Shown here in pieces: positions 5,684 through 53,655 of a DNA stretch of 64,000 nucleotides (position 1 is the first letter of the stretch; the number at the start of each line of letters is the position of its first letter). The stretch is from Trebouxia sp. TZW2008 (Eukaryota > Chlorophyta > Trebouxiophyceae > Trebouxiales > Trebouxiaceae). The stretch is from positions 1-64,000 of the forward strand of contig BDIU01000043.1 in assembly GCA_002118135.1 (NCBI GenBank), read 5' to 3'. Both the position numbers and the translations under genes were made by a program. Under the pieces are notes generated by a model. The model worked only from the letters and a program-made list of their open reading frames with translations. It ran no database searches and had not been told where the DNA came from.

Positions 5684-7366
5684 TTAAATCAGGTCGCTCA
5701 GATTGGTCACTGACTTAGCCCATCTAACCTTGTTTGCCTGCTCATTGTTTTGCCAACTGCCCATGCTGCCTTTCAACTCGTCCACAGACGCTTTCAGGGC
5801 TGACACTTCTTCTGACACTGCTGACTGGTGACATCTGATGACCGCAACATGACACGGCGTTTCAAGGCCCGTGACCAGCTCCTCTGTCATGGCAGGCACT
5901 GCAGTTGCTGCAGCAGGGGCAGCCTTCTTGTCTGTAGTAGCTGGCTTCTTTGCAGCAGCAGCAGTCTTGCCTTTTGCTGCACTTGCTACATCAGCTGAAG
6001 GCTGCACAGCTGATGGACAGAGTGCCTCTGAGTCAGCGGCACTCCAGCCCAGATCCTGCCACACACAACCAGTCATTAATCATCAATCAGTCACTCATTC
6101 AAAACGCGTGCTAGACAGGCCCAGCAGGCCCAGCTAGGTCTGCGCTGGAGGAATCAACCGTCTCCAATTGGGTCAGTCACACAATCAGTCAACAATCATC
6201 AGCTGATGTCAAAATGCAAGAAATTTGGGCTGACACTCATCAATCAATGCCACTGCCCAGCCTGTCAGGAGTCCTGGAGAATGCCAGGCCATATGTGATT
6301 CAAAAGGTAAACAATTTCGAAGCTGGGCCTTGCAAAGACTGCTAGCTGATGCACATGATGCACTATCTCTCAAGAAATCACACTGCCCTGAGCAGCAGCA
6401 ATGCAGTTGTCAGAAAGCGTGGCAGCGGTTGCACCAGTCAACCAAGAGACTGCTGCTCCGTGCTGCAGCGAGCAGTTTTGAGTTGTGCCATTGCCATGTG
6501 CAGACAATGTTCTAGCGTGCCTCACCTGTAGGCCAATAAGGGGCGGCTGCAAATGCCATTGGCTTGGGGCATAAGCACGGCTACTGTCTGCTGCAGCATC
6601 CTTGGCAGAGCCCTGCAGAGTGCAACATCTGATCAGCTTTGAGGCGAGTGTGTCAGGCAAAGGCAGTCGGTTTGAGTCCATCCTGACAGGGTGCAGATTT
6701 GACTGTGTGCAAGCCAGTGTCAAAACAGCGCCGGCATTGCCATGTTGACTTCTGCCTCTCTGTGCACATTAGCATTCAGTTTGTCTGCATCAGTGGCTGA
6801 CTGAGCAATGCATTGGGACTGAGAATTTTGGCATACAATGCTACAAAACTGAACATGAAAGGTGGCGTGGCTGGGGATACATGCGACGCTTCAAAGGTAC
6901 ATTGAGTGGGAGCAACTTTCCTGGATTTAAAATGCATTGCAGTTTTCTTGCAAATATACAAAGTATGCATGCTGTATGGAAGGATTGCAGGTTACGTCAC
7001 CTTGGCTGCTGCCTTGTTTGCTGTGGCAGCTTTGCTGGCCGCAGCAGGGCCCTTGCCTGCAGGGCCTGTCTGCACAGCCTCACCCCCTGCTTCAGCCCCT
7101 GCCAGGGCCAGAGCCTGAAGCTGCTTCAGGCTGCGCCTCACAGGGCTGCAGCACAGCAAATCATTGTCAACATAGCCAGAATCAGTGTATTTCTCATGAT
7201 CGCAGCAACTTTGCTCAACAGCTCTTGAGAAGCATGAACGTGATCACAATATTCTGTATTGTGGTGCTAGCAAAGCAGCCATCTGCTGCCAATTGCAAGT
7301 CTTAATATGCAGTAGTATGCACCAAGCTGGGTCACAGAGCCTCACGAGAATGCATGATGTTGATGT

Positions 7367-7434
<68 letters not shown>

Positions 7435-34200: not shown

Positions 34201-37200
34201 TGCATCACAGGAAAATGATGACCTTGGCAGAGATGTGGAGCTAAGCTGCACTGCACCCGTGCAGGGAAGGCTTTAGAGCGATGACTTCATCATGCCGCCA
34301 GCAAAAACTTCAGCACTTGAGCTTACCGAGATAGTGAGGGCAGAAGAGGTGGAAGGCATAGTCATCTTAGCAGTGATGGTGCCAGCGCTGTACAAGTAGC
34401 CCGCCACGACCACCCAGTATACTATCAGGCAGACTGTCATGACGAAGGGCAAGATTGGGAAGAAGAAGAGGCTTGGCATGGTGCCCACTGCCTGGCTGGC
34501 CACCTTGATGCACGCCACAGCAATCTGCGCTTGAACAGAGCTTAGCATAGCGTGGCGTGGCACAGCACAGCAGACACTATCATGCAGACAGTCATGATGA
34601 AGGGAAGGAGTCGGGAAGAAAAAGAGGTTTGGGCTGGCACCCATGGCCTGGCTGGCCACCTTCATGCACGCCAATGCAATCTGTGTTTCACGCACAGCAT
34701 CACATGGCATATCGTAGCATGGCATGGCATGGCATGGCCCAGCACAAACAAGGGGTTGCCCTATAGCGCAATCAGGCTAGTGAAGCATGGCATGACATGC
34801 CATAATGCATCACAGCATATCGTAGCACAGCACATCACAGCCCATCTAAGGGTACAGCATAGACGAGTCACACCATAGACAGAGCACAGCATGGACAGAG
34901 TGCAGCATGACAGCAGCTTTTTCAGCAAGGCATGGCAAACACGGTAACTGGCAGTTTGCAATGCAGCAGCCGGTCTGGCAAGACACAGTTTGTGCCATAT
35001 ACACCAGCTCATATGCTAGAAAGCAGACAGACTATTGCTATCACTACTTAGACCGATTGCATTGTCACTAGGTCACCTTGACTCGGCGCATCATGAGCAG
35101 TGTCAGCAGGATGAGAATGGCTGTGCAGCCGGCCAGGATGTAGGCAATGATCAGCCACGCCTTCCTGTCTGATGCGTCTGTGCTCTCTGCAGCGTCCAGC
35201 TCTGAGCTGATGCTGCTGCCCAGGGCATAGAAGTGGCCCGTGCCAAAAATGCCAGACTGCAGAAACAACAGCAAGTGAGCAGCATTCAGTTGCAATGGAC
35301 AGGCGCAATGCCAGGAATGCCTTCCTGTCTGATGCGTCTGTACTCTCTGCAGTGTCCAGCTCTGAGCTGATGCTGCTGCCTAGGGCACGGTAGCGGCCTG
35401 TGCCAAAGACGCCAGGCTGCAAAAGCAGACAGATAAGCGTGAAGCATGTATGACCATGTTCAAGGCCAGAGATGCCAGACTGCAAACACAATAGCTGCTC
35501 AACCGTCACTTGTCCTTGGACTCAAAGGGCTAAGCGTCCTGCGCCCAAAATGGAAACATGATAGCAACTACGCATCATTCTGGACTGTGCCCAAAGCATC
35601 AAGTTGGACCAAACCGCCCAGCTTCCAAGATCACAGCAGGTGAATGGCACCAATACCAGAGCACAGAGACGACCTGTGACTTCAACACTCGACAACAAAC
35701 ATCACATCAGGTGCGTGACACCCTTGGCCAGTGCATGTACATGTCCTAGATCAAGCATCATGAAGGCTGCACGTGAGATGTCAATGGAGGACTGAGTAAG
35801 TCTGTAAATGCAGGTGTGCGTACCTTGAGGAATGCAAGCATGGTGAAGGCTGCACAGAAGACGTTGACTGAAAGAGAGGGGCTGCACAACTGACGATGAT
35901 CATTCATCCATGCAATTATACATATCACAAGAGAGGCAAATGCGGTACGGCCTGCCAATGAGGTTGCTGTTTGATGGTAAATTTTCTGTCTGTCTGTGCA
36001 GGGTGCATACCTTGAGGAAGGCAAGCATGGTGAAGGCTGCACAGAAGATGTTCACTGACAGGATGGCAGCCCAAGCCATGATACCAGCGGCAAAGCGCAG
36101 CAGCACCATCCAGATCAGGGACAAAAACATTCCAGCGGCCAGGCCTGCAAACCCACAACAGACATGAATGCGAGAAAGGCTGATGGGATGAATGCCAAAT
36201 TGTCCGGCGGCACAGAGTATGCCAAGGATGGTGATTTGCACCCAGGCCTGCTGACCTGCACATGCATCTTTCAGACATCTGCTTGAATTTGTTGATGCCA
36301 ACACCCTGCCTGTTTCAGGAAAAGCTTTTCACACTTGCTGTCTGACTGCTGTCCTGTTCCTCACTGAGCTTTCCAGCTATATGAATCCTGCAGGCTAAGT
36401 CTGTGCAGATGTGCTGTGACTGTGAGCAACTGCTGAGCATCAATGAGTGAGATTGCTGATGACAGACAGAGCTCCACTGCATAGACAGGCTGCAGGAACT
36501 TATGATGCTCTGCAGCTTGCTAGTGAGAGGCGCTGTTGGGCAGCCATGCAATCACTGGTACAGTGCACTGTCCGCCAGCTCAATTGTGTAGGTACAGTTG
36601 CATGCAAAGTCGCTTATCAGGGCACAATCCAGCTTTGAAACAGATGCGGTACAAACCCATGAGCTAGATGAGGAAGTTGCCCCATTTTCAAATAGCCAAT
36701 TCAGGTAATGCATAGGCAGCCAGCAAAGGAGGTGCCAGTGGACGTCATGCTTTGGCTGCATAGGGCACAGTTGCAAGTCTTGCAAGGAAGACAGGCTGCT
36801 GTCTTGCCTTCCAGGAGTCAGGGTGGGCTATCTCATCTTGACATGGATGATGAGCATGCCGTTGTGGGTGTCTGCAATGTACCGCTGCAGCAGCTTCTGA
36901 TGTTGAATTACAAAAGAGTGATTTGAAATGTGCTGCCTGACTCCTGGTGTCAGGATGATGAGCACGTTTTTGGTATCAGATCCTAGTGGATGGTCAGGGT
37001 GAGCTGTCTCACCTGACACAAGGATGATGAGCATGCCCTTGTGGATGTCTGCAATGTAGCGCTGCAGTCTCTGGCTGGCTGAGCTGAAGCTTTTGCTGAA
37101 AGCTGGCGTCTCGCTGCTGTTGCTGTATGGCGTCAGCCCCACAGCTGTCACCACGTCATCAAGCAGTGCAGAGTCAAAGCTTGGAAAGCATCTGCAACAG

Positions 37201-39513
37201 CAAGACAGGAGCTACGAGACTGCTGCAATCATCTGTACAAGTGCTGTTGCAAGCTCTGCAAGATTGTCTTGCTGTGACTACATGGGGTCAGGCCTACAGC
37301 TGTCACTGCATTGTCAAGCAGGGCAGAATCAAAGCTTGGGAATCACCTGCAACAGCGTCATGGCAGCTGTCAGCAATATTTGCTGTGCTGTCATCATTGC
37401 CACTATGTGCTCTGTGTGCAGCTGCTGCTACAGGTCCACATGCTGTCATGCTCTAGCGTCAGCCCCACAGCCGCCGCCACATCATCAAGCACAGCCTAGT
37501 TCAAGCTTGTTGGCATGGCAGGTACATCAGCACATACTACTGTAAGGCGTTGAAGCTTCAGCACCAGGTTGTTGCGTCACTTGTTCATCTGATGCGGGGC
37601 AAGATCCAGAAGTTATTGGCACACCCATTATCTGGCTGAGGAACAGCTGCTTGCCACTTGCAAACGTTGTGGCATGCTATGCAAGTCTTGATGGCAAACC
37701 GCCAGGCACTACTCCCTCAAGGATGGCTTTATGGTCACGCAACACATGGCATGGCACTTACCTGTTGAGATGTTCCACACTTGGCACCAGGGCAGGGCAG
37801 CGTGACTCATCCCAGGGTAGACTGCAGCCACTCCCCACAAATGGGGTTGTTGGCATGCCATGCAAGCCAGGACACGTCACAGTCACTACAGTCGCAGGGA
37901 AATCTTGCTGAAGTCACCTGTTGAGGTGATCCACAGTTGGCACTAGGACAGGGTAGCAGGGCCCATGGCCAGGGTATTGACTGGTGAACTGCAGCCATTC
38001 TCCACAGCTGGGATTGTTGGGGTCAGCCATAAAGGCCGCCTTGTACTTGTTAGGGTACCCCGGCAGGTCTATGCCACACTGAGTGACTGGGTTTAGTGTG
38101 GTGGTAGTCAGTGCGTCCCAGTAGGTGTCTGCATAGCCGTCGCTGTTGCCTAGGATGGTCAGCGTGCCGTACAGGTCGTGCTCTGCTGTCCTATAGTACG
38201 GGCACCTGCAGAACAGCTGCCAATGAATCATTATCAATCAATGAACCAATCAATCAATTAATCAAGGGATCAATCAATCAAAGGATTAATCATTCAAGGG
38301 ATCATTGAATCAATGAATGAATCAATCAACCAACCAACCAATCAATCAAACAAACAACCAGCTGTCATAGCACAAGAGCTCTGTAAGCTGTGAGGTCAAG
38401 ACATCTGACACTATGATGTGCAGCCGTGAGTACCGCCGTGTGCAGGGATTGAAGAAAAAGTCTAACATGAACAGTGCTCTGCAAGTGTGTCTTGGAAGTT
38501 GCCATTTCGGCATTGCCAGTCCAGTCAGAAGAGGTCACAGGCGCTTCACTGGGCCGATGTACAGCTACTGAAATTGCAGTGTTGAATACAAATCAGCTCA
38601 GCTGTTGTATGACATGCAAATGTAAGCATGCGTTGCGCTTGTTATAGGAAATAAAGTGCATGTAATCACATGACCTACATACATGCTTATGGGTCACAGC
38701 ATCAGGCTTCCTCATGCATGGTTGCAGCATGCAGTGGTACAGTCACTTCTCTTTGTAAGGACTCTCAATGTAAAAACATTGTTGATGTAAGGACAATGTA
38801 CATGGTAAGCAGTCACTACATTCTGAGTAAGGACAATCCAATATAAGGACAGTTTTCTTGGAAACCAACGCAGCCATTACACAGAGAAGTCATTGTAAGT
38901 ACAAGCAAGAATCATCACAAGGTCATAAGGATGCTTGACCTATATTGAGCGGCAGTGCGGCAAGGGAGGTTTGCCACACCACAGACATCTGTGGCTGTAG
39001 GGCATGCCTCCACACAGATGGCTTTGGCGGTTGTGATGGTCGCCGGGTTCAGCAGCTCCAGCGGATTCAAGTAGTACAGCTTTGGCTTGAGCGTCAGGTC
39101 TGGCCCGTTCGTGCCATCCCAGTCATTTTTGGTTCCACAGAGATTGCCATACGAGTCAATGGCATACTCCAGTCTCTCAGGTCTGCCTGTGCATACAAAA
39201 AAGAGCTGCTGGTGATTACAGAAGCTTGAGGCTGATTGTTCTTGTTTGCAGTATGCAAGACGGGGCGCACCTCGCTCAAATGCCAGGTAGGCCACATACA
39301 GCATGCCTCCCCAGAAGACAGCAAAGAGAATCAGGTAAATCAAGTCTCGGCATTTTCTATTAGACTGGATGACCTGTACGTTTCACCAAGACAGACTTAT
39401 ACTTGCTGAGACACCACAAGCTGTAGCCTGTCAGAAACATGTGCACAGACAGCTTCGTGTACCTCGTCTGAGGGTGACACGGGGCCTTGCTTCTTACGCC
39501 CGAAGCAACCCAT
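31216..39513 (-). CDS. Choline transporter-like protein, SLC44/CTL family
   Basis: Fourteen exons: 39513..39463, 39373..39271, 39186..38940, 38205..37918, 37191..37013, 36144..36011, 35256..35077, 34524..34327, 34012..33798, 33402..33298, 32823..32623, 32156..32018, 31790..31629 and 31467..31216. All phases agree and the product is 817 residues. Family marks are the first helix after KCRDLIYLILFAVFWGGM, a large Cys-rich extracellular loop (ACPTATDVCGVANLPCRTA, CPYYRTAEHDLYGTL, NPSCGEWLQ), then LAAGMFLSLIWMVLLRFAAG, and the conserved C-terminal half with WTNQFIVAFG, TIAGSVAHFYW, YHLGSAALGSFVVALIQ, MCCVNCLMWYLEKVVKFINR and NAYIMVAVHGSGYCTSA. A proline-rich segment (PPPPSPPPPPPP, about residues 472-483) is inserted before the WTNQF region. 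The tail is Lys/Glu-rich. Family members move choline or related cations at plasma and organelle membranes; substrate here is inferred only. Confidence 0.93.
34345..34700 (-). repeat. Decayed duplicate of CTL exon 8 upstream of the exon
   Basis: The exon block starting GGCCACCTTGATGCACGCCA (34498) recurs 155 bp away at 34653 as GGCCACCTTCATGCACGCCA, extending over about 130 bp. The copy still reads ACMKVASQAMGASPNLFFFP, against ACIKVASQAVGTMPSLFFFP in the exon, and keeps an acceptor-like edge. It then frameshifts. Confidence 0.9.
34700..34905. repeat. Low-complexity CATGGC / CAGCA tract in CTL intron
   Basis: The sequence has runs of CATGG and AGCAC units, for example GCATGGCATGGCATGGC near 34720-34738. 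It looks like slippage-driven expansion within the intron upstream of exon 8. Confidence 0.7.
35077..35425 (-). repeat. CTL exon 7 and a near-intact 5'-edge duplicate, period 160 bp
   Basis: The exon at 35077-35256 is preceded on the minus strand by a copy at about 35310-35418. The shared block GCCTTCCTGTCTGATGCGTC begins at 35159 and at 35319. The copy keeps a TTTTGCAG acceptor and an open frame (GVFGTGRYRALGSSISSELD against GIFGTGHFYALGSSISSELD). Its donor side is missing, because it runs into intron. Confidence 0.92.
35745..36065 (-). repeat. Copies of CTL exon 6 3' edge
   Basis: GCAAGCATGGTGAAGGCTGC at 36021 (exon) recurs at 35834, with the donor CAAG/GTAC context kept. It recurs again in weaker form at 35751 (TCAAGCATCATGAAGGCTGC). 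The spacing between the first two is 187 bp. Confidence 0.88.
36825..37520 (-). repeat. CTL exon 5 amplified at both edges
   Basis: The 3' edge of exon 37191..37013 is repeated downstream: ATGATGAGCATGCC-(C/G)-TTGTGG at 37024, with a copy near 36847 and a fragment near 36952. The 5' edge is repeated upstream: GTCAGCCCCACAGCTGTCAC at 37131, with copies near 37288 and 37459, spaced 157 and 171 bp. Both flanking introns are therefore largely exon-derived. Confidence 0.88.
37760..38025 (-). repeat. Copy of CTL exon 4 3' edge, period 157 bp
   Basis: The exon end GTTGAGGTGATCCACAGTTGG (from about 37920) recurs at about 37763 as GTTGAGATGTTCCACACTTGG. About 95 bp are alignable, including the donor. 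Confidence 0.88.
38223..38362. repeat. Degenerate (AATC)n tetranucleotide tract in CTL intron 3
   Basis: About 140 bp consist of AATC/ATCA units with interruptions (AACCAACC, GGGATC). It sits directly upstream, on the minus strand reading, of the Cys-rich exon 4. Confidence 0.9.
38750..38880. repeat. Degenerate TAAGGAC repeat in CTL intron 3
   Basis: The element (G)TAAGGAC recurs five or so times at irregular spacing, interspersed with CAATGTA-like sequence. It may be a decayed minisatellite. Confidence 0.5.
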
Positions 39514-40080: not shown

Positions 40081-43000
40081 ATGGATGAATCGCTGTACGA
40101 TGAGTTCGGCAACTACATTGGTCCAGAGTTGTCAGGCAGCGAGGTATGACGGTTTGCAAGGCTTGACCTTTTCTTCTGACTGAGCCTGCGATTCAGACAA
40201 GGAGACCCACAATCGTTCATGGCAACAGTATAATGCTGATCTGCACAGGACGAAGATGAGGAGGAAATGGAAGAACCAGCTGAGCCTGATGAGCTTGAGG
40301 AAGCTGAAGAGGCAGCAAACAGGCGTATGGACATGACAAGTAGGCACACTGCTCTTGCACTGAACAACGCCCTGCAGTGAAATGCAAGGCCAAAAGTAGC
40401 ATGCGCTGCTGCAAAGATCAGCTGCGTTTTGCTGTCTCCTGCTGCATGCCTGCAGTTGTATAGCGTGCGCATGAGTGACGCTTGTGCAAGATTCATTGCC
40501 AATGCTCAGATCTGCATCACAAAAGGTTCCATTTGGGATGTCCGTTATGCAGAACTGGTCGTTTGCAATGTGCTCTGCATCATCGTCCATGTGCAGCTAC
40601 ATACAGAATGCAGGCAGATGCACTTGTTTCAGCTCCACTTATTGCCCAGGTCATGAATGCATGCCAAATCACTTCTTGTTTGGGTACATTACCACATACC
40701 CACATGCACGCATTGAGCGAAATCAGTCATCTCAGAAAAACGGATTTTGTAAGTGAGTCTGTCCAGTTTTCTACAGCTGTCCGTGGCGAATACATGCAAA
40801 TCAAGACGTACCCACGTGCCTGTACCAAGTCAAGTTTGTCAGATATTTCACCGAGGTCTCTTGCTGATGATTTTGTTGCACTTGTTGCAGCTGATGGAGG
40901 TGGATGGTCAAATGGAAGATCAGAAGGGGAATGTTGCACGTGTAACCCACTCCAACATTACCTATGTCCATGCATCCAGTCCCATGGATTGCTACTAAAG
41001 CGCCTTGCTCGTGACAGTGTTCATTTTTTTGCAGCTGGGCTGATGGAGGTGAATTTTGAAACAGAAGATGAGCAGCAGAACCCTGAATGCGCAACGCACA
41101 CCATCATATGCCTATGTGCATGCATAAAGTTCCATGAAGTCATACATGCCTCGCTGGTGACTTTGTTCAGCTTGCTGCAGCTGGACTGATGGAGGTGGAT
41201 GGTCGAATTGATTATGAGGATGCAAAGCTTGAAACAGCAATACACACCAACGCTTACTTGTGTGCTTGCATCACGTTTCATGAAATGTTTGCAAACATGC
41301 CTTGCTGGTGAGCATGTCCAGTTTGTTGCAGCTGGGCTAATGGAGGTTGATGGTCAAATAGAAGATGAGGACGAGAACCTTGAAACAGCTGTGGTCCTTC
41401 ATGAGGACAAGAAGTATTACCCAACGGCTGATGAGGTTTATGGCAAGGAGACCGAGACCCTGGTCATGGAGGAAGATGCACAGCCCTTGGAGGTGAGGCC
41501 TCAGCAGATGTGCAATTCTCCTGTCATCATGGCTTGAAACAAGCGCTAGCTCATAGATCAAACACCCACAATACACGCTTATCCTGCACATGGAGTGCTA
41601 CTGGTTTGCCTTTGACCGTGCACAGTGATATATCTGCACAGAGTCTGAGGTGCACTGCAACATCATGGCATGAACTGTGTGATGTGTGCTGAATGGCTGC
41701 AAGTGCAACTGCTGTTTGCCACATTGCTTGAAGGTCGCATTTGGCTTATACAGGTGCTGACCATTTCCAGAATCAAGCACAAGAAGGCGGAAGCATGCTG
41801 ACGGGGTTGATTTGACATTGGCTGCATGGACCCCTTCCAGATCTGTCAGAAACCAAAACCATTGATAGAATGATTGATTGTGTGCAGGTGCCAATCATTG
41901 CCCCAATCAAGCAGAAGAAGGCAGAGATGCTAGAGCAGCAGCCCTTGAGGACCAACTACAGCAATGAGTTCCTGGGAGGGCTCATGAACAACCCTGAGCT
42001 TATCAGGAACATCGCTGTTGTTGGCCACTTGCATCACGGCAAGACCCTGGTGAGTCCACAGCACCAAGCCACATGCTGTGAACTCGCTCAACAAGCCATA
42101 TGCTTCATGCGTGTCATCATATAGCCATATGCTGTGCAGAGCATTGCTGTTGTTGGTCACTTGCATCATGGCAAGACGCTGGTGAGTTCAATGCACCAAG
42201 CCGCATGCTGTATGCCTGCCTTCGCTATTCAAGTATGCTACGGTTTTCAGAAATGTGCATCATAGTCATCCACAGTGCGTTCTGTGCAAACTATATGCTG
42301 TAGCGTGTGCAAAGATGTCATCTTTGCACATGTCAGACAGTTTTGACAGCAGTTCTGCCAAATCTTTTGCAGCTTGCACACTTGTTTCTGTCGTGTCAGC
42401 ATTTTGCAACACGCTCATGCAACTGGTTTATAGCAATGCAACTCAATCACCATATACTGTACATGCCTTTTGACACCGTGCCAGTGACTGACACTACACT
42501 GCACTACAGCTTATGAACATGCTGGTAGAGCAGACGCACGATCTGCAAAAGGAGTCGCATGTCAATCAGCTTAATGTCAGTGTTCCCGTGGATCTAAAAC
42601 TTTTTGCAACTTAGCATGTAGCACTGCGCTGCAGCTTATGGACATGCTGGTGGAGCAGACGCATGACCTGCGATACGAGTGGCGCAACAATGAGCGCCCG
42701 CTGCGTTTCACTGACACGCGGGTGGACGAGCAGTCACGTGGCATCAGCATGAAGTCCACACCCATGTCCTTGGTGCTTGAAGCTAGCACCGGCAAATCCT
42801 TTGTCATGAACATGCTAGACACGCCAGGTAGGTTTAGCTGCTACCTATGCAACTTGCATCAAACAGGCTTTTGCTGGTGCTTTGTGAAACGGCTGCATCT
42901 TTGTGCAGCATTTCGGTACCCGTGCATGTGTGCATGTGCAGTCACATGGCATCAGCATGAAGTCCATATCCATATCGTCGCTGTTTGAAGCCAGCACTGG

Positions 43001-46000
43001 CAAATTTTTGTCATAAACATGCTTGACACACCAGGTGACTCTAGCTAGCACTGCTGCATCATTCATCAAGCTTATACTGTTGTGATGTCTGAGAGACGTC
43101 TGTGTCTGTACGCGTTGTGATTCTCCTGCATGACTGGATGAGCAGTCACGTGCCGTCAGCATGCAAGGCACAATCACGTCATTGTTGCTTCAAGCCAGCA
43201 CCGGTAAATCCTGTCTCATGAACACGCCAAATTACCCCAGGTGAGTCCAGTAGCATTGCATCAAACGGGTTCTTGCTCATAAGCTTCTTGTGTCCCAGGA
43301 CTGTCTGTATCTTCGTGCACATTAAATCACATGGCATCAGCATGGAAATTGCACCCATGTCATGAGGTCTGGAAGCAAGCTTTGGCGAATCTTTGTAAGG
43401 ATCATGCTTGACACCCCAGGTCTGCAGTTACTGATTGGTGCACTATGTATCAAGCAGGGTCTTGCTTATGCTTTTGTGGTCGCTTTTGGGGTCTCTGAGA
43501 GATGCTTGTATCTTCACGCGTCATGTTTGTCTTGATGTATGCGTGGGCGAGCAGTCATGTGACATCAGCATGAAGTTTGCAGGCTTGCAATGCAATCAGC
43601 TGTGCTGCTGCAGGGCATGTCAACTTCAATGACGAAGTGACAGCTGCCATGAGACTGTCAGATGGCGTGCTGTTGGTAGTAGATGCAGTGGAGGGAGTGA
43701 TGCTTGTAACGCAGAAAGCTATCAAGCAGGCTTGCCAAGAGGGGCTTCCCATCTGCCTGCTTATCAGCAAAGTGGATCGGCTGATCACGGAGCTGAAAGT
43801 GCCTCCTACTGACGCCTATTTCAAGCTGCGGCACACCATAGATGAAGTGAACTCGCTCATTCAGCTGCACTCTGGCAGCAATCCAGACTTCCAGGTGTGG
43901 ATGCAGTGACATCTTTTGTGCTTAGTAGGTGTTTTGTTTGTCTTGTTCTGTGCAGCCTGCCTGCTCATCAGCAAAGTGGATTGCCTGATTACGGAGCTGA
44001 AAGTGCCTCCTACTGACGCCTGTTTCAAGCTGCGGCACACCATAGATGGAGTGAACTCGCTCGTCGAGCTGCACTCTGGCAGCAACCCAGACTTCCAGGT
44101 ATGGATGCTTTCCTGCCTGCTGTGTTGCGTGCTGTGCAATATGCTGTGCTGCATCTTGTGTGACATGTCAGGTACAAACTGGCTGTTCTGCATACTGTAT
44201 CACATAGCAATTGCATTGTGTTACCTGTCAGATACATTGTTCCAATGTCAGTTGTGTGTCAAACTTGTGTGCTTCAGGGCCGACCTATCAGAGGCAATGC
44301 AGCCCTTGGAGCTTGCGAGTCTGGCTGGTGCATGTTGTACCACTTTCTAGCACATGTCAGTTGCACATTACATCTTGTGGGACACTTCAGTGTGTGGCAC
44401 AAGTTGACCCAATCAAGGGCAATGTGGTCTTTGATGCTTGCCATCCCGGCTGGTCCTTCACACTGTCCTCCTGTGCACAGATCTACTGTGACATATATGG
44501 CCAAAATGGACACCAAGGCATATGTTATGTTTTGTGCATGCTGTGTAAGAGCCGCAATACTGTTTGTGATAAACGGTCACAGTGTGGACTGCAGGTTGAA
44601 CCAATCAAGGGCAATGTGGCCTTTGGTGCTTGCCAATCTGGCTGGTCCTTCACGCTGCTCTCCTTTGCACAGCTCCACTGCGACGTGTATGGGGCAAAGT
44701 TGGGATGCACGGTCAGTGTGTGTGCTACAGGTTGACCCCATTGAGGGCAATGTGGCCTTTGGTGCTTGCCAGTCCGGCTGGTCCTTCACGCTGTCCTCCT
44801 GTGCTTAGCTCTACTGTGACGTGTACAGGGCAAAGATGCACCCCAAGGAGTTTGCCCAGCGCTGTGGGTTGACGTCTACTTCAAGTCTGATGTGTGATGT
44901 GTTCAGCGTTTGAAGTGCAGATCGACCCCATCAAAGGCAATGTGGCCTTTGGTGCTTGCCATTCCAGCTGATCCTTCACGCTGCTCTCCTTTATACCGCT
45001 CTACTGCAACAGGTTGTTGCTGAGTCAGGCTATATACATGCTGACTTTTGTCACATCTTGTGCCAGGTGTGGAGCAGGTGTGCTACAGTTTGACCCAATC
45101 AAGGGCAATGTGGCATTTGGTGCTTGCCAATCCAGCTGGTCCTTCACGCTGCTTTCCTTTGCTCAGCTCTTTGCGACGTGTATGACTGATTGTGTCGACG
45201 CTCAATGTGTATGCTACAGGTTGACCCCATCAAGGGCAATATGGCATTTGGTGCTTGCCAATCCGGCTGGTCCTTCATGATGCTCTCCTTTGCACAGCTC
45301 TACTGCAATGTGTATGGAGCCAAAATGGACCCCAAGGAGTATGTCTAGTGCCTGTGGGGGTTTCAAGCCTTATGCGTAACGTGGTCAATGTTTGAACTGC
45401 AGGTTGACCCCATCAAGGGCAATGTGGCCTTTGGGGCTTGCCAATCTGGCTGGTCCTTCACGCTGCTCTCCTTTGCACAGCTCTACTGTGACGTGTACAA
45501 CGCAAAAATGGACCCCAAGGAGTTTGCACAGCGATTGTGGGGGGATGTCTACTTCAAGCCTTCCAACCGCAAATTTAGCAGACAAGCACCTAGCAAGGAC
45601 TCACAGCGCACCTTTGTACAATACATCCTGACTCCCCTATACAAAATCTACAGCCAGGTATGCGGCACGCGTCATGGAGGTGCTCCAGAATGCAACTTTG
45701 TATCACATCCCAACGCCCCTGTACATTGTATCTCTTGCCAAATATGTGCAGCACCTAGCAAGGACTCACAATTTGTACAAAACATTCTAACTCCCCTGTA
45801 CAAAATCTACAGCCAAGCATGTGGCACACACATGATGGATATGCGCACTAGTATCATATCCCAGCGCCTCTGTGCATCGTATCTATTGCCATATATGTGC
45901 AGCACCTGGCAAGGACTCACAGCGCACCTTTGTATAGTATTTCTTGGCTCCGTTGTGCGGAATATACAGCCAGCAAAGTGCATCACCCAATAAGGATGCA

Positions 46001-49000
46001 CACTGCACCTTTACGGGCACTACATACTTAACAACCCTATCTCAACTTTTCAGCAGAGCGCATGCATCATGCTGTGAAATCAATCTTTGCACAGCGCATT
46101 TCTGTACAATGAAGCCTGACACCCATGTACGAAGTCTTTAGCCAGGTCCTTGCAATGCATTGTGACTTCGTTACACACAAAAGGGCGAATGCGTTTTGAT
46201 CAAGGGATTTGTCTGCTATGTAGCATCAGCGTTTGTCAGCAAGCTCTGTAAGGCTAATTCGCCACTGGGCTTGAATTTCTTTGTGGTCTTGCCATTGAAT
46301 GTCTTGCTGTTGGTGTTGATAGGAGAGCATGCATCGTTTGCGAAGCAGATGCTGATTGAGTATGGCGTATACTTGAAGATTTTCACCTTTAGCAATTTGC
46401 AGCACTTAATGAGTGGTCTCACAGCGACTGGTCTCACATGAGGATCTGTTTGAAGTGCATGGGGAGCACAAGTTTCAGAGACCGGCAGTAGCTGAACAAA
46501 TTTCTGTTGGTGTAGATCCTTGGAGAGCACGAAAAGACTGTCCAGCAAATGCTGGATGAGTTTGGCGTATACTTGAAGCCTTCGACCTTTGGCAAAGACA
46601 TCAAGCCCTTTTTGAAGGACGCATGTTCCCAAATCTTTGGCAGCGCAACGGGGCTGGTTGACATGATGGTGGCTCACATCCCTTCCAGCAAAGCCGGCAA
46701 TGCCACCAAGGTAAGTTCTGTTAATTTTCTGCTTTTGATCAATAGCAAACAAAACTTTCCTTGCATAGATCTCCAACTTTTCCAAAGAGGAAATGCTGTC
46801 ATAAACACCGGTGCCCCTGTGCATCAATGGACTGCTGTCACAGTGTCACAAGAGCAGTCGACATGTGCTGCAGGTCCAGAGACTTTATACAGGGCCACAA
46901 GACGCAGAGATTGCGTCGCACATCAGGGACTGCAATGCGCGTGGACCGCTGCTGGTCCAGAGCTTGTACATGGCACCACAACACAATAGTTGTAACACCA
47001 ATGGCTGACGCAGCAAGTTACTGAGAGCATCACCTGTTGCAGGTCCAGAGGCTATACACAGGGCCACAAGACGCAGAGATTGTGTCACACATCAGAGATT
47101 GCAATGCGCGTGGACCGCTGCTGGTGCACATTGCCAAGCTGTACCCAAAGCAGGACTGCAGCACCTTTGACGCCTTTGGCAGAGTCTTCAGCGGCACTGT
47201 CAAGCCTGGAGACAGGGTGAGCTCTTCACCCGACACTTTCTCAACATCACAGAAAATATGGTGTAAAATCAGGGGTGCTTTGTGAGCTGTACCCCAGTAA
47301 GGACTGCAGCACCTTTGATGCCTTTGGCAGAAATTTCAGCGGCACAGTTGAGCCTGGAGACACGGGGAGCTTTTCATTTTGCTCTTGCGCTATGTGATAT
47401 GGCTACAAGGACAATCCCAGTGCCCAGTAAACAATTTCTCAGCAGCATTCTTTGTACGTGGCTGGAATCAGGCAAGCTGTTCACCAGAATGCATTCTGAG
47501 CTGTGCCTACATGGGGCTGCCGTGTCCAATAAACGCTATCTTGCTGTGTTTGCAGTGCATGATGAAAGCCCGTAGACAGGATGAGCTGATCACCCAAGTG
47601 CTTTGTGCTTTGTGCCACAAGTAAGGTGGAAGTGTTTTGGGATGATGGGCAGACTAGGAAGGAGCAAATTTGTGCAGCATTAAGTGAGGAGTACAATGTT
47701 TTGCCCAAATGTGCATCTCAGTAGGAGCTTTGCATGAGTCAACATGGATGATGTGGCATATGCACAGGTGCGGGTGTTGGGTGAGGGCTTCACGCCAGAG
47801 GATGAAGAAGACAGTGCTGCAGCAGAGGTGAGCAAGATGTGGGCCTATCAAGCGCGCTACAGAGTCCCCCTCACCAAAGCCGTCGCTGGTATGCAGCATC
47901 TTTCACAGCATTTTGGCAATCTGCAATTTTCCACACTTTCCGACATCATGTTTGTGCCAGCACAACTTGCTTTGAAGCTATGCAGTAATATCCAGCAGAC
48001 CATGTGTGGTGCTGCTTAAGTGCCCCTGATCGGTTTTGTTCCACAAACTTGTAGCTGTGACAAAGTTGTCTTCGAAAGTCTATGATAGTAATGACTGCAC
48101 CGGCAGGACTTGATCTGTATTTGCTTCAACTATGTGCTGCAGCAGTTGGGTGGTAAGTGGACAACCATTCTCTTTGTGTTTTTCAGGCAACTGGGTCCTG
48201 CTGGAAGGGGTTGACTCAACCATAACCAAGACAGCCACAATCATTCAAGAGGGCTATGATGAAGAAGTGCACATCTTCACTCCGCTGCAGTTTCAAACAC
48301 AGTCAGTGATGAAAATTGCGACAGAGCCCTTGAATCCATCGGAGCTGCCAAAAATGGTCGAGGGCCTGCGTAAAATCAACAAGAGCTATCCCTTGGCGGT
48401 GACCAAGGTGGAGGAATCTGGCGAGCACGCTATCCTTGGTACAGGGGAGATCTACCTAGATTCTCTGATGAAGGTCAGTAGGACAGAACATCCCTTGTGC
48501 ATTGTGACGGCACCCACTGCACATTGTGACTGCAGGATTTGGGTGAGCTGTCTGCTGATTGCAAGCTGTGCATGACTTCAGCCATGGCAAAAAGACAATT
48601 GAGTCTGCTGCAAAACACAACTGCATCCATTGTAGAACATGACAAAACTCACTGCAGAGCATGAATGCTGGGCATCTCATCACGGAAGTGCTTGCATGGC
48701 TTCAGGACTTGCGTGAGCTGTATGCTGGTTTCAAGAAGTTGTGCATGATTGCAGCCATGGCAAAATGATATCCGAGTCCATTGCGAAACATGACTGGATT
48801 CATTGCAGAGCTTGAATGCTGGGTCACTCATGATCAAAATGACTGCATGGCTGCAGGATCTGCGTGAGCTGTATGCTTAGGTTGAGGTGAAGGTGGCCGA
48901 CCCTGTTAAGTCTTTCTGTGAGACTGTTGTGGAGACGTATTTGCTCAAGTGCTTGCGCCACATCAAATTGAGGCATCGTTGATCTTGCTGCTTGCACTTC

Positions 49001-52000
49001 GCAGGACTTGCGTGAGCTGTATGCTGAGGTTGAGGTGAAGGTGGCTGACCCAGTTGTGTCCTTCTGTGAGACTGTTGTGGAGACATCCTCGCTGAAGTGC
49101 TTTGCCGAGACGCCCAACAAACGAAACAAGGTCACCATGATAGCAGAGCCCCTTGACCAGGTGGGACATTTGAAATGAAATAAGTGCTATCTCAATGTAT
49201 AGATGATCCAGTCCATCTGTTTTGCTCAGCAGCGCAGTGATGTCGTTGCCAGTACAATGCATTGAGACAGTGATAGTCAGCACTGCTTCGTTTCTAGCTC
49301 TGCAGAAAAGGTTGCAGTGCTTCTGCCCTAAGCAGTCTTTTGCTCATGTTGCGTCTGCCCAGATCTGTGCAATTCTACAGGCCTTGGCATTTGATGTAGA
49401 GACAGGCACAATCAGCCTGAATAGCTCTCAACTGAGTACAGCAGAAGCCAAAAGTCAAGTTAGTCGACCTCATCAAAATTCTGTTCACTCTGCAGGACAT
49501 GACACAGAAACAGGCACAATCAGCCTGGACACGTCATAAGGCTAGACCCAGAGGATGGTCAGAAACCACTCAGACCAGGTGTCACATCGCTGTCCTGATG
49601 AACACTCTATATATGTCATAGGGCTTAGCAGTGGACATAGAGACAGGCACAATCAGCCTGGACACGTCACAAGGCTGGACCCAGAGGAAGGTCAGCAAAT
49701 ACTTCCAGGATAAGCACGGCTGGGATGTGTTGGCAGCTCGTTCAGTTTGGGCCTTTGGGCCTGATAAGCAAGGGCCCAATCTACTGCTGGATGACACCCT
49801 GCCTGCCGAAGTGGACAAGAACCTGCTGAATGCTGTCAGAGATAGCATCACACAGGTATAGACCCCTCACGCAGGGCTTCTCTGAGCGCAGTTCAGACTC
49901 TGAATGCTGTCGCTGCAAGCTAGTTCAGTGTGGGCCTTTGGGCCTGATAAGCAAGGGCCCAATGTACTGCTAGATGATACTCTGCCTGCTGAAGTGGACA
50001 AGAACCTGCTCAACGCTGTCAGAGATAGCACCACTCAGGTGCGAGCTCTTGAGATGATCAGCATCTGCGTGCAGTTCAGACCCTGAATGCTGGTTGTTGC
50101 AAGCTACTTCAGTGTGGGTCTTTGGGCCTGACAAGCAAGGGCCAAATCTGCTGTTGGATGACACCCTGCCTGCTGAAGTGGACAAGAATCTGCTGAATGC
50201 TGTCAGACATAGCATCACACAGGTATGACTATGTTGACACAGTGCTTGTCTGGGTGCATTTCAGACTCTGAATGCTGTTGCTGCAAGCTAGTGCAGTGTG
50301 GGTCTTGAGGCCTGACAAGCAAGGGCTGAATCTACTGCTAGATGATACCCTGCCTGCTGAAGTGGACAAGAACCTGCTCAATGCTGTCAGAGAAAGCATC
50401 AGGTATAAAGTTGCGATTTGATGCTCCTCTGAGTGCAGCTGTTCATATGCTGGCAGCTTCTGATGTCAAGTTTCAGATCCTGGATGCAAACGTGGCATCA
50501 GATGCCAATTGTCATCACCACTGTTTCAGTATGACACAGGTCATCATCATCATCACCATCAACATCATGATGCATATCCAGATTGTTATCGTCATCATGT
50601 GCAGGGCTTCCAGTGGGGTTCCAGGGAGGGTCCCCTGTGTGATGAACCTATCAGAAACGTCAAGTTCAAGATCCTTGATGCAGCCGTGGCATCAGAGGCT
50701 CTGCATCGGGGCGGTGGCCAAATCATCCCCACAGCGCGGCGCGTGTGCTACAGTGCCTTTCTCATGGCAACTCCACGTCTAATGGAGCCTGTCTACTATG
50801 TTGAAATCCAGACACCCGCAGGTGGGGACCTTTCGCCTGATTTGTGTCAGGTCTTTCATGTGCTTCACATGCTGAAGCCTGTCAAATATGTCAGGATCAG
50901 ACATCCACGATTGGGCGCCTACCCTACAGTGCATTCTTGATGGCTGCGCCGTGCCTTATGGAGCCTGTCTACTATGTTGAAATCCAGACGCCCGCAGGTG
51001 GGGACCTTTGGCCTGATTGGTGCCAGATCTTTCATGTGCTTTGCATGCTGAAGCCTGTCAAATTTGTCAGGATCAGACATCCACAATGCAGCACGTGCAT
51101 ACTTGATGGCCACCCCGCGCCTTATGGAGCCTGTCAACCATGTTGAAATCCAGATACCCGCAGGCGGGTAAAGTTGCCGCAGTTTTGGCAAGTGCTCAGG
51201 TGCTAGATGACTCTTGGACTGCAAGTTGTGTGCTATGCTGCAGTTTACACATCTGCAAGAGGGCATGGCTTGCAATGCGTCTCATGTCACTGTATCTGTG
51301 TCGACTTGTGCTGTTCTGCCTTGTGAAGTCCCGTCTTGGCCTGTTCCATGCTACTTCACCGTATCCCTTGTGTCAAATTGTAGCCATGAATGCGGTCCTC
51401 AGCTCACTGTGAGCTTCATTGGCAGCAAGCTCATTACAGCTATGTTCCTTCATGTTGCATGACAAACAGCAGCTTGTGCTTTCAACAACTGTTGGATTCT
51501 TTTGAGCAGAACAAGGGACTTAGACAGTTGCAGATGGCGTAAGCTGCGGTTTGCCATGCATCATGAAAGATGACGGCTGTGCTAAGCCACCATCTTCTCA
51601 AGTCCAGTATCCATGCAAAGCTTGATCACGCATGACATGGCATTGCAGTTGCTGCCAGGTCCAGTTTGTCATAGTCAAGGGCAAATGGAAATTGTTGGCA
51701 AGCACATTGTGTTCAGGCCATCCTCTCAGTTCTGGCCAAGAGGCGTTGCCATTTGACTACAGACACTCACAAACCGGCACTTCTATTTGTATAGTGCCAT
51801 CTTCAGCTTGTCTCAATCAGAAGCACATGGATGCTGTTGGCAAGCAAATTGTTTACAGGCCATCTACACTGTCTTGGCCAAGAGGAGGGGGCATGTGACA
51901 AGGGATACCCAAGAGTTGCATCCCGATACGTCTTTGTAGTGCAGGCATGCGTAATCATGTCATTCCAGACAGCTGCTTTTTGCCATGTCCTATGCCAAAA

Positions 52001-53655
52001 TGAATGCCTTCTGACCGCAAACATACAGACATTCGGGGCATGCAGATTGTATACAGGCCATCTACACTGTCTTGGCCAAGCAGAGAGGCCATGTGACGCG
52101 AGATACAGCAAAGGCCGGCACTCCTATCTTCACTGCATTGGCATGCGTGAGCATGTTTGTACACACAGCTGTTTCCCAGCATATCCTATGCTAGTAAGTT
52201 TAGTGCATCTTCACCACAAATCATGGACCTTTGCGGTGTGCAGATTGTATACAAGCCATCTACACTGTCTTGGCCAAGAGGCGAGGCCACGTGACCAGAG
52301 ACACTCCCAAGGCTGGCACCCCCATCTTCATAGTGCAGGCAGAGTTGCCTGTGATAGAGTCCTTTGGCTTCGAGTCAGACTTGCGGTATCACACACAGGT
52401 CAGTATTGTGATCTTTCCAACAGCAAATCTGGCAGCAAAAAGCTGCCTAATGTTTGAATGTTTGTCTTTGAATCTGCATTGTTCGATCAGAGCATAGGTC
52501 ACTGCTCTAAATCTTGTCCCAGCAAACAGATGCCTGTCGATGAGCCCTTTGGCTTTGAGTCAGACTTGCAGTATCACAATCAGGTGAATGCCTGCTACTG
52601 TCAATTACGGTCATAATTGCTGAATTGCATTTTGTCTGTTGTTTGTTTTGCAGCTTTCTGCAATCTGCCTTAAAAACGACGCTCACTGCTGCTTTGCAAT
52701 TGCTCTTTGATCTTTGAGCAAATGGGGTTTTAGAGAGATAACGCTTCCTTGCTTACATCACGAAGGGTTCAGCTCATGGCTCAACTAGCCTGCAATGCAT
52801 GGACAAAAAGCAAAGCACCTGACAACGTTGGTCTGGCAAGGCCTGAACAGAGCTGTAGTTGCGAATCTTGGGCGTGTGGTGCATTATCATGATCAATCAG
52901 TACCACTTGCATGCTTGCCAGTGAGTTTTATGTCCCTGCCAGGTGCGTACAGAAGCAGTGAACTGCCCTCAAGCCACTCTGTTCTTGTCATGCAGGGCCC
53001 AGCATTCTGTTTGAGCGTGTTTGACCAATGGCAGATTGTGCCTGACCATTTTTTGGGCAGACCTGTGGTCCTGAGGTCACTTGAGCCTGCTGCTTACGTA
53101 TGCACCCAGCGAACTGCCTTCCAACAATTCTGTTCTTGTGATGCAGGGCCAAGCATTCTGCTTGAGCGTATTTGACCATTGGCAGATTGTGCCTGGAGAT
53201 CCTTTAGACAGATCTGTGGTGCTCAGACCACTTGAACCTGCCTTGCCACAGGAGCTAGCCAGAGAATTCATGGTCAAAACCAGACGACGAAAGGTAGTGA
53301 CTGCTGCGTGTTACTTTGATGCATGGTTGAGCAGGGCTTTGATCAGATAGCCTATGATTGTGTGCTCACCTGTCGTTTGCTCACTTCTGTAATTTGCAAT
53401 AGCTCGTCAGCTGAGCCTTTGTGCAGGGCATGTTGTTTTGTGAGCAACTGCTCTTCACAGCTTTTGCCTGAGTGTTGCTGCTGACTTGAGCACTCAGCGC
53501 AATGTATACAGCTATGATGCGCTAACAAAATTCACCGAAATATGGCATGCGTGGTGCAGGGAATGAGCGAAGATGTCTCCATCAACAAATTCTTTGATGA
53601 CCCTATGCTTTTGGAGCTTGCGCGGCAAGATGCCGATCTAACAAATGTGTATTGA
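40081..53655 (+). CDS. SNU114: U5 snRNP GTPase Snu114 / EFTUD2 (CLO)
   Basis: Seventeen exons: 40081..40143, 40249..40339, 41332..41492, 41888..42049, 42635..42827, 43614..43894, 45403..45657, 46516..46710, 47043..47216, 47768..47888, 48187..48473, 49005..49160, 49622..49855, 50605..50821, 52244..52398, 53147..53293 and 53560..53655. All phases agree and the product is 995 residues, matching plant CLO. It is an EF-2-like GTPase that controls Brr2-driven U4/U6 unwinding and spliceosome disassembly. Visible features: the acidic N-terminus ([14 protein letters not shown], then DEDEEEMEE), G1 GHLHHGKT at 151-158, G3 DTPGH at 221-225, G4 SKVD at 275-278 (NKxD in homologues), [109 protein letters not shown] and [15 protein letters not shown]. 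Its introns hold the most extreme exon-edge copy arrays in the window. Confidence 0.98.
40870..41400 (+). repeat. Four copies of SNU114 exon 3 5' edge, period 146-151 bp
   Basis: ATGGAGGTGGATGGTCAAAT-like blocks begin at 40893, 41043, 41189 and 41340. Each is preceded by a (G)CAG acceptor and GCTG. The last is the functional exon edge. The spacings are 150, 146 and 151 bp. Confidence 0.92.
42005..42190 (+). repeat. Copy of SNU114 exon 4 3' edge (P-loop and donor), period 132 bp
   Basis: The exon end encoding the GHLHHGKT loop (GCTGTTGTTGG at 42014) recurs at 42146, with the complete P-loop coding sequence and a CTG/GTGAGT donor. Only a few bases differ. Confidence 0.93.
42500..42690 (+). repeat. 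Copy of SNU114 exon 5 5' edge, period 125 bp
   Basis: The acceptor and exon start CAG/CTTATGGACATGCTGG at 42635 have a copy at 42510 (CAG/CTTATGAACATGCTGG) that runs for about 40 bp before diverging. Confidence 0.9.
42720..43590 (+). repeat. Five copies of SNU114 exon 5 3' edge
   Basis: CAGTCACGTGGCATCAGCATG-like blocks begin at 42731 (exon), 42939, 43143, 43324 and 43552. Several keep the downstream GACAC(G/A)CCAGGT donor context. The spacings are 208, 204, 181 and 228 bp. Confidence 0.9.
43740..44110 (+). repeat. Near-intact copy of SNU114 exon 6 3' part, period 204 bp
   Basis: A copy at about 43955-44098 reproduces the exon end at 43750-43894, including the G4 region and the CAG/GT donor. 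It is preceded by a good TGTGCAG acceptor. It still reads [20 protein letters not shown], so it looks exon-like, but its acceptor phase has not been shown to be usable. Confidence 0.93.
44270..45530 (+). repeat. Eight copies of SNU114 exon 7 5' edge
   Basis: Exon starts resembling GTTGACCCCATCAAGGGCAA occur at about 44278, 44403, 44595, 44731, 44921, 45089, 45220 and 45403. Nearly all are preceded by CAG. Spacings are 125, 192, 136, 190, 168, 131 and 183 bp. Only the last joins the full exon. Upstream copies translate the start (for example [18 protein letters not shown]), then meet stops or frameshifts; the copy at 45220 ends at a TAG near 45346. Confidence 0.95.
45585..46155 (+). repeat. 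Five copies of SNU114 exon 7 3' edge
   Basis: The exon end (GCACCTAGCAAGGACTCACA at 45585) recurs at about 45753 and 45903, and in weaker form near 45989 and 46109. The copy near 45753 is the best preserved, but its donor has changed from CAG/GTATGC to CAAGCATGT. Confidence 0.88.
46318..46590 (+). repeat. Copy of SNU114 exon 8 5' edge, period 200 bp
   Basis: GGAGAGCA(C/T)G starts at 46322 and 46522. Both are followed by the block that encodes EYGVYLK or EFGVYLK. The upstream copy is frameshifted relative to the exon. Confidence 0.88.
46865..47135 (+). repeat. Copy of SNU114 exon 9 5' edge, period 170 bp
   Basis: The acceptor and first 90 bp of exon 9 (GTCCAGAGGCTATACACAGG at 47043) have a very close copy at 46873, preceded by TGCTGCAG. 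The copied coding sequence remains open through [19 protein letters not shown]. Confidence 0.93.
47130..47380 (+). repeat. Copy of SNU114 exon 9 3' edge, period 148 bp
   Basis: GCTGTACCC starts at 47138 and 47286. Each is followed by GACTGCAGCACCTTTGA(C/T)GC and the exon end. The copy's donor has become ACACGGGGAG, so it is dead. Confidence 0.92.
48525..49100 (+). repeat. Four copies of SNU114 exon 12 5' edge
   Basis: GTGAGCTGT(A/C)TGCTG blocks start at 48542, 48713, 48864 and 49012 (functional), each after a CAGGA(C/T)(T/C)TG edge. Spacings are 171, 151 and 148 bp. The third copy extends furthest but carries a TAG two codons into the shared GAG-GTT-GAG stretch. Confidence 0.92.
49385..49700 (+). 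repeat. Three copies of SNU114 exon 13 5' edge
   Basis: ACAGGCACAATCAGCCTGGA-like blocks begin at 49402, 49510 and 49643 (functional). The middle copy reads LDTS then stops at TAA. Spacings are 108 and 133 bp. Confidence 0.9.
49735..50410 (+). repeat. Four copies of SNU114 exon 13 3' edge, period 183-184 bp
   Basis: The block beginning TCAGT(T/G)TGGG at 49742 (exon) recurs at 49925, 50109 and 50293, spaced 183, 184 and 184 bp. Each copy carries the [15 protein letters not shown] coding core, through LLNAVRDS, to an AGGT or AGGTAT donor-like end. Confidence 0.95.
50455..50720 (+). repeat. Decayed copy of SNU114 exon 14 internal segment
   Basis: AAGTTTCAGATCCTGGATGC at about 50468 mirrors AAGTTCAAGATCCTTGATGC at about 50662. 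Similarity continues through GTGGCATCAGA. Here the copied segment lies inside the exon rather than only at its edge. Confidence 0.85.
50750..51170 (+). repeat. Three copies of SNU114 exon 14 3' edge
   Basis: ATGGAGCCTGTC starts at 50782 (exon), 50958 and 51124. Each is followed by ATGTTGAAATCCAGA(C/T)-CCCGCAGG. The donor CCCGCAG/GTGGGG is intact in the first two. Spacings are 176 and 166 bp. Confidence 0.93.
51690..52340 (+). repeat. Four copies of SNU114 exon 15 5' edge
   Basis: ATTGT-x-TACAGGCCATCTACA-like starts lie at 51706, 51848, 52045 and 52244 (functional). Each is followed by CTTGGCCAAG and decayed coding sequence. Spacings are 142, 197 and 199 bp. Confidence 0.93.
52355..52595 (+). 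repeat. Copy of SNU114 exon 15 3' edge
   Basis: CCTTTGGCTT(C/T)GAGTCAGACTTGC occurs near 52362 (exon) and near 52543. The copy keeps a CAG/GTGAAT donor-like end. Confidence 0.92.
52930..53275 (+). repeat. Copy of SNU114 exon 16 5' edge, period 151 bp
   Basis: AGCATTCTG(C/T)TTGAGCGT starts at 53001 and 53152, each after ATGCAGGGCC. About 150 bp align. The copy encodes [13 protein letters not shown], then loses the frame seen in the exon. Confidence 0.93.

Follow-up and report, generated by a model that had tools for sequence, protein, structure and literature searches.

The window analysed here, a 64,000-nucleotide stretch of the genome of Trebouxia sp. TZW2008 (contig BDIU01000043.1), comes from an assembly of 68.5 Mb in 527 contigs. 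For Trebouxia genomes, the accessible text of two genome papers gives sizes of 63-74 Mb and about 50% GC (PMC12712428, PMC11523091).

The window carries the gene of SNU114, the U5 snRNP GTPase of the EFTUD2/Snu114 family. The gene model consists of 17 exons and 16 GT-AG introns and yields one open frame of 995 amino acids; the introns add up to 10,587 bases. The predicted protein aligns over 100% of its length with P0002 (89% identity) and with a protein named Trebouxia sp. C0009 (87% identity). The SNU114 proteins of the two nearest relatives are 988 and 995 amino acids long. Among solved structures, 8xi2_C scores highest (1568 bits); its deposited name is ‘Elongation factor Tu, chloroplastic’, and we take it to be a Chlamydomonas spliceosome entry. 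Human Snu114 comes second (3jcr_B, 1313 bits).

A Pfam scan of 20 ORFs of the window gave matches at E ≤ 0.001 in seven, and the curated cut-off was passed by four. No match reached the gathering score in an Rfam scan of the window. On the minus strand, at 7247-15839, ORFs matching DUF4455 and DUF4456, presumably of the CCDC180 type, contain local duplications of their own.

Copies of exon edges in the SNU114 introns

The 17 exons were compared with the 16 introns by blastn (E ≤ 0.01). Forty matches were found, all in direct orientation and all in an intron adjoining the matched exon (Table 1). In 24 of them the intron lies upstream and the match covers the 5' side of the exon, and in the other 16 the intron lies downstream and the match covers the 3' side. 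The placement described in the first-pass annotation, with copies of acceptor edges upstream and copies of donor edges downstream, is therefore seen in all 40 cases. The match reaches to within 12 bases of the exon edge in 37 copies and stays 28, 54 and 72 bases off the edge in the remaining three. The matching stretches measure 22-159 bases and are 73-95% identical to the exon, apart from one 22-base match of 100%. All 40 copies are partial and lack 52 or more bases on the far side of the exon.

At least one exon-like copy is present in 13 of the 16 introns. Introns 1, 10 and 16 (105, 298 and 266 bases) gave no exon copy by blastn at E ≤ 0.01. The highest number for one edge is seven, on the acceptor side of exon 7, and the highest number in one intron is eight, in intron 6. 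The earlier observation of adjacent-exon edges in most introns is thus real, and its range of one to seven copies is accurate when counted per edge. At E ≤ 1e-3, matches to the adjacent exon cover 3,074 of the 10,587 intron bases, and local direct repeats of any kind make up 5,489 bases (52%).

The repeats are local. Self-comparison of the window at E ≤ 1e-4 revealed 67 direct pairs and one inverted pair at distances up to 2.5 kb, and no direct and seven inverted pairs beyond this distance. In the same self-comparison, two first-order Markov shuffles of the window gave no pairs at all. Chance similarity is therefore an unlikely source of the repeats, and the self-similarity reported for this locus clearly exceeds the chance level.

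Two further features lie in these introns. Intron 14 holds a 125-base imperfect palindrome (window 51446-51570, 70% identity), and a stretch of intron 15 (52907-52983) forms an inverted 78-base match of 78% with the choline-transporter-like region (32355-32431), perhaps a small element.

Table 1. SNU114 gene model, exon-edge copies in its introns and a second gene with the same pattern. Positions are those of the window.
Feature	Position	Strand	Basis and remarks
SNU114 gene (U5 snRNP GTPase, EFTUD2/Snu114 family)	40081-53655	+	gene model, protein matches, solved-structure matches
SNU114 exons 1-6	40081-40143, 40249-40339, 41332-41492, 41888-42049, 42635-42827, 43614-43894	+	
SNU114 exons 7-12	45403-45657, 46516-46710, 47043-47216, 47768-47888, 48187-48473, 49005-49160	+	
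SNU114 exons 13-17	49622-49855, 50605-50821, 52244-52398, 53147-53293, 53560-53655	+	
Three exon 3 acceptor-edge copies, intron 2	40890-40931, 41035-41087, 41181-41238	+	blastn
Exon 4 acceptor-edge copy, intron 3	41754-41791	+	blastn
Exon 4 donor-edge copy, intron 4	42139-42181	+	blastn and flank test
Exon 5 acceptor-edge copy, intron 4	42510-42558	+	blastn
Four exon 5 donor-side copies, intron 5	42930-43034, 43135-43227, 43327-43419, 43543-43576	+	blastn and flank test; match of 43543-43576 stops 72 bases before the edge
Exon 6 donor-edge copy, intron 6	43957-44098	+	93% identical, repeat distance 204
Seven exon 7 acceptor-edge copies, intron 6	44284-45360 (starts 44284, 44403, 44595, 44731, 44924, 45090, 45220)	+	blastn
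Three exon 7 donor-edge copies, intron 7	45750-46145 (starts 45750, 45901, 46090)	+	blastn
Exon 8 acceptor-side copy, intron 7	46344-46395	+	match begins 28 bases inside the edge
Exon 9 acceptor-edge copy, intron 8	46874-46959	+	blastn
Exon 9 donor-edge copy, intron 9	47285-47362	+	blastn
Three exon 12 acceptor-edge copies, intron 11	48536-48558 (E = 4e-3), 48706-48727, 48861-48954	+	blastn
Two exon 13 acceptor-edge copies, intron 12	49383-49419, 49501-49565	+	blastn
Three exon 13 donor-edge copies, intron 13	49918-50401	+	unit about 183
Exon 14 acceptor-side copy, intron 13	50465-50505	+	match begins 54 bases inside the edge
Two exon 14 donor-edge copies, intron 14	50924-51163	+	unit about 176
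Three exon 15 acceptor-edge copies, intron 14	51706-52132 (starts 51706, 51848, 52046)	+	blastn
Exon 15 donor-edge copy, intron 15	52528-52578	+	blastn
Exon 16 acceptor-edge copy, intron 15	52996-53090	+	blastn and flank test
Choline-transporter-like gene, same pattern	32756-34683	-	window self-comparison and Pfam; 34421-34527 repeated at 34576-34683, 32756-32871 repeated at 32969-33078

The splice sites and intron flanks were tested in 36 of the 40 copies, the edge of the other four (starts 43543, 46344, 49501 and 50465) being missing or judged uncertain. Flank homology is expected in all copies, but it is clear in 12 of the 36, in which the 60-base intron flank beats all 120 unrelated-border comparisons. 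In the other 24 it fails to beat every null. Two of the three exon 3 acceptor-edge copies are among the clear cases, and in the first exon 14 donor-edge copy the flank is identical at 54 of 60 positions. Blurring on the intron side is expected, since both intron copies drift while the exon part drifts freely in one copy only. The claim that splice site and flanking intron were duplicated together thus stands for the edge itself and, as far as the flank is concerned, for a third of the copies examined. As an unspliced flank is present in at least 12 of 36 copies, spliced RNA was not the template there, and the copies are, as judged from their sequence, DNA duplications. The exon 13 and exon 14 arrays are apparently clean head-to-tail arrays.

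State and age of the copies

Differences between copy and working exon were counted in 39 of the 40 copies (all except 48536-48558). They affect codon positions 1, 2 and 3 at 11.0, 8.6 and 21.8%, respectively, with 209 synonymous and 214 non-synonymous differences. Eleven of the latter create stop codons, and 18 indels were found in addition. The AG or GT dinucleotide is kept at the expected place in 26 of 36 copies. None of these 36 copies offers an alternative splice site that keeps the frame and avoids a stop, and the SNU114 copies look dead. This agrees with the decay through stops, indels and lost splice sites that had been read from the locus before. The observed ratio of third- to second-position differences is 2.5, compared with about 1.7-fold in a hand estimate for a dead copy facing a synonymously evolving exon. 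Some copies may therefore have passed through an early phase of constraint or conversion.

The third-position excess and the many conserved AG or GT dinucleotides could also be taken as signs of alternative exons or alternative splice sites, generated by tandem exon duplication for the production of isoforms. A few copies are moreover called with low scores by an ad hoc exon predictor, for example 43956-44098 and 41181-41259, both at 12.8, below the cut-off of 13. This cut-off had been raised, and the splice model of the predictor was trained on SNU114 itself; it returns 14 of the 17 SNU114 exons exactly and exon 17 exactly except for the stop codon, gives exon 10 another start and misses exon 16. 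Such a role of the copies is nevertheless very improbable: in-frame, stop-free splice-site use is possible in none of the 36 copies, no copy comprises a complete exon, and the proteins of the relatives (988 and 995 amino acids, aligned over 100%) leave no room for copy-derived insertions. Mutually exclusive exons are likewise not indicated, as both exon ends occur together in 0 of 40 copies, and stops and indels are present.

The residues encoded by 38 of the 40 copies (all except those starting at 43543 and 48536) were compared with the proteins of the two Trebouxia relatives. At 40 copy-sites the window residue is unlike that of both relatives, which agree with each other; here the copy has the window residue in 25 cases, the relatives' residue in one and another residue in 14. 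A hand count restricted to sites at which the outgroup P0004 agrees with the relatives gave six, one and three, respectively. These polarised sites come from five copies, of exons 4, 7 and 13. Few as the sites are, these five copies look to have arisen after the split from the two relatives. Of 20 untied steps away from the working exon, 14 lower the identity and 6 raise it (p = 0.058; 0.046 by permutation), which weakly suggests that the copies age outwards.

Local direct repeats elsewhere in the genome

The search was extended to 28 further loci, 18 of which are stretches picked blind and ten of which were selected because they match the chaperonin family Cpn60/TCP-1 (PF00118). Together with the window, the sample comprises 29 sequences and 304,687 bases, and contains 158 primary local direct pairs. 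The 18 blind-picked stretches, with pairs of any rank counted, hold 190 direct and 23 inverted local pairs. The spacing of the copies in the 158 pairs has a median of 157 bases with quartiles at 123 and 197. A spacing of 60-100 bases was found in 21 pairs, of 140-180 bases in 52 and of more than 240 bases in 21. Planted duplications of 60-1300 bases were recovered in 11 or 12 of 12 cases at each size, and planted units of 40 bases never. In view of this even recovery, the fall-off above 220 bases is not a detection effect. Among the PF00118 loci, which contribute 26 pairs, the size peak is less pronounced, with a median of 124 and 9 of 26 pairs within 120-220 bases.

The placement observed in SNU114 is also found in other genes. 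In the PF00118 genes, a Pfam-anchored exon contains one and only one of the two copies in 15 pairs, and every one of these follows the same rule; they come from six of the ten genes and, as some belong to one array, are not all independent. The other 20 of 35 pairs touch no Pfam anchor. Outside SNU114, the 18 stretches and the rest of the window contain 107 pairs, of which 31 have one copy in a predicted exon, six have both and 70 have none; this last count is an upper bound, as the predictor misses exons and marks 12% of bases as coding. Among the 31 one-exon pairs, 27 span the exon edge that faces the other copy, four are internal and none is reversed. In the window, the choline-transporter-like gene shows the pattern twice, each time upstream, at the acceptor end of an exon that matches Pfam; its edges were read by hand from the coordinates of the Pfam matches, short of a full gene model.

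The units are mostly unique to their locus. Within the 29 compared sequences, 150 of 158 units match none of the others and eight have a match, and no spacer out of 86 matches across loci. Within the same scope, a dispersed family of the introner type can be set aside, and the similarities are unlikely to stem from dispersed elements. That the copies are an artefact of assembly or belong to a dispersed mobile element has next to no probability, even if near-identical copies are as rare as they would be after collapse. Misassembly would not create copies of 73-95% identity with a codon-position pattern and lineage-specific residues, and the 150 units without a match in the other compared sequences count against this reading.

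The identity of the pairs gives an indication of their age. Two pairs of a 105-base coding-like repeat (in L026) are part of the 158 and were left aside in the age and span counts, which leaves 156. Where 60 or more bases are aligned (129 pairs), identity is 95% or more in none, 90-95% in six, 80-85% in 31 and 75-80% in 38. As survival can only fall with age, this spectrum suggests more activity in the past, barring collapsed young duplicates, and duplication activity was probably higher then. Young duplicates do exist somewhere: an identity of at least 95% was found in 5 of 36 pairs from eight further small loci. These loci, a repeat-dense one included, cover 24 kb, lie outside the 158-pair set and have a median spacing of 179.

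Those eight loci were obtained from a search for the pattern of AGGT-type intron gain, which was otherwise uninformative. Under this type of gain, the next exon's start should reappear in the 5' part of the intron, and the preceding exon's end in the 3' part. The exon edge predicted in this way is matched by none of the 40 SNU114 copies, all of which are of the border-copy kind.

Origin, size and border placement of the duplications

We consider it likely, with a probability of about 0.8, that the SNU114 introns grew by repeated tandem duplication, at the DNA level and filtered by selection, with units of about 120-220 bases. Where exons and introns are short, many of the units duplicated in this way would straddle an exon-intron border. 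An event would be tolerated only if the complete exon kept one border copy attached to it and the additional copy came to lie on the intron side, to be spliced out. Copies of 5' edges would thus end up upstream, and copies of 3' edges downstream. With time the additional copy would decay, with the exon part of the working copy conserved, so that exon-like relics could still be recognised after the duplicated intron sequence had blurred. Selection would thus act as the filter, and units placed inside exons were presumably removed by it. The duplications were probably more frequent in the past and may be largely specific to this lineage.

Nearly all recognisable duplications in SNU114 include an exon edge, and the question arises whether borders are a special target. 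A mechanism aimed at borders and tied to transcription or splicing (R-loops, reverse splicing or RNA-templated repair) would copy exon edges directly. When units are placed at random on SNU114 with its present intron lengths, 31% fall across one border and 61% within introns, which is in favour of such a mechanism. With introns shortened by the copies they hold, however, geometry alone favours borders (55% across one border, 29% inside introns), and the geometric argument therefore depends on short ancestral introns. Given such introns, the border relics are close to the border-blind expectation. Copies containing exon sequence should also stay recognisable longer, and similarity is expected to fade about twice as fast between duplicates that are wholly intronic. 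Together with the unspliced flanks and the pairs without a predicted exon (70 of 107 outside SNU114, as an upper bound), this makes a border-aimed mechanism improbable, and a modest border preference is possible. Of the original proposal of tandem duplications spanning borders, the duplication at the DNA level and the retention of only the exon-fused copy are upheld, and the border as a special target is not.

The share of intron length that is explained differs between genes. In the ten Cpn60/TCP-1 genes, local direct repeats make up 12% of the gaps between anchors, and 0% in three of the ten. SNU114 is extreme with its 52%, and the view of such duplications as the main source of intron length has been borne out in this gene only. 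Regression of intron length on copy number gave a slope of 167 bases per copy (r2 0.84). This lies within the range obtained when 40 copies are dropped in proportion to length (slope 130, 71-193), and is no evidence by itself.

The nucleosome core measures about 147 bases, the nucleosome repeat length is about 160-200, and Okazaki fragments are sized by nucleosomes. The size peak at 140-180 bases is suggestive of a nucleosome-scale unit, and it fits nicks or fragment ends one nucleosome apart. Duplication might proceed through paired nicks in adjacent linkers, followed by fill-in and end joining, or through a replication error of the size of an Okazaki fragment. We infer that unit size could reflect nucleosome spacing.

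Replication slippage or unequal exchange between short direct repeats would have no link to nucleosomes, and the preference for 140-180 bases would then have another cause. An 8-base word at 49731, the exon-side start of the exon 13 array, recurs at 50451, just past it, the two lying 720 bases or about four units apart, as slippage would have it. Four pairs overrun one unit by 11-24 bases (in L012, L013, L023 and at window 45585); junction homology or a partial third copy could account for these overruns. Six other pairs span one unit within 3 bases (two in L017, the others in L029, L031, L034 and at window 58912), indicating little junction homology. In the 156 pairs as a whole, the alignment spans about one unit in 11, more in 39 and clearly less in 106; the short spans are due to decay or gaps, and the exact head-to-tail structure can be seen in few. 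A census of junction microhomology across the arrays gave no usable result, because most are too decayed. Slippage should also yield short units, but the class of 60-100 bases holds less than half as many pairs as that of 140-180, although both are detectable. We regard slippage as rather unlikely, and the evidence is compatible with fill-in as well as with slippage.

It is conceivable, at somewhat less than even odds, that this Trebouxia lineage went through a wave of nucleosome-length tandem duplications, now slowed, which was a leading source of intron growth; chromatin would have set their size, splicing would have made them tolerable, and the relics would be a record of the events. Intron growth would become countable and datable gene by gene, where the usual answers on the origin of intron length are transposons or unexplained drift. 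In SNU114, many intron bases seem traceable to one type of mutation with a preferred size, the exon part serving as a label, and the relics would give the count, order and rough date of the events. Similar duplications elsewhere in the genome point to a simple route for intron growth, in which splicing can shelter duplications that are harmful inside exons. If their size reflects nucleosome spacing, introns would be a fossil record of chromatin-guided mutation.

The nearest case found, as far as the available text of its description goes, is the potato RdRp gene, in which one border-spanning tandem duplication made a new intron (PMC4974935). There, as here, the unit joins the end of an intron, the splice signals and the beginning of the next exon; in SNU114, this joint inclusion of splice site, intron and exon is seen at the edge in 37 of 40 copies and in the flank in 12 of 36. 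In contrast to potato, the extra edge appears to stay within a longer intron and to decay, many times in one gene. The AGGT tandem-duplication model (Rogers 1989; Hellsten 2011, as described in the same source) likewise involves a short intragenic tandem duplication, tolerated because splicing removes the extra DNA, but it concerns an exonic segment and a new intron, whereas existing introns are lengthened here. Internal gene duplications (Gao and Lynch 2009, cited there) share the frequent intragenic duplication, in some cases with whole introns.

Break repair, according to the accessible parts of the reports, also yields local, tandem or partly tandem duplications, with insertions under 100 bases (PMC8355091) and, in rice, of 10-1000 bases (Vaughn and Bennetzen 2014, via PMC7407515). 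The rice range means that the size class itself is not new. In comparison with the insertions under 100 bases, the Trebouxia units peak at 140-180, are dense and are mostly old. Introners, for which the available text reports a bias to nucleosome linkers, also cause rapid growth of intron DNA, but form dispersed families of similar introns (PMC9860276), unlike the local and mostly unique units of Trebouxia. In the open-licence literature, titles and opening abstracts of the papers found mentioned neither exon-edge relics as an origin of intron length nor a wave of tandem duplications of nucleosome length. The accessible text of two Trebouxia genome papers (PMC12712428, PMC11523091) does not contain the word ‘tandem’, and has ‘intron’ in one reference title only.

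Some of the compared loci have repeats of another kind. L003 (contig C102) contains 88 direct and 56 inverted pairs in 3 kb, unlike the seven other loci of the AGGT search. In L026, a long array of 105-base units (7194-9988) lies inside predicted coding sequence and is probably a repeat protein. A dispersed element of 42 bases (L033:2034-2075 and window 38827-38868) gave 11 hits in 7 of the 29 sequences, and another of about 96 bases (L034:1398-1493 and window 6104-6163) gave nine hits in 8 of the 29, in both orientations.
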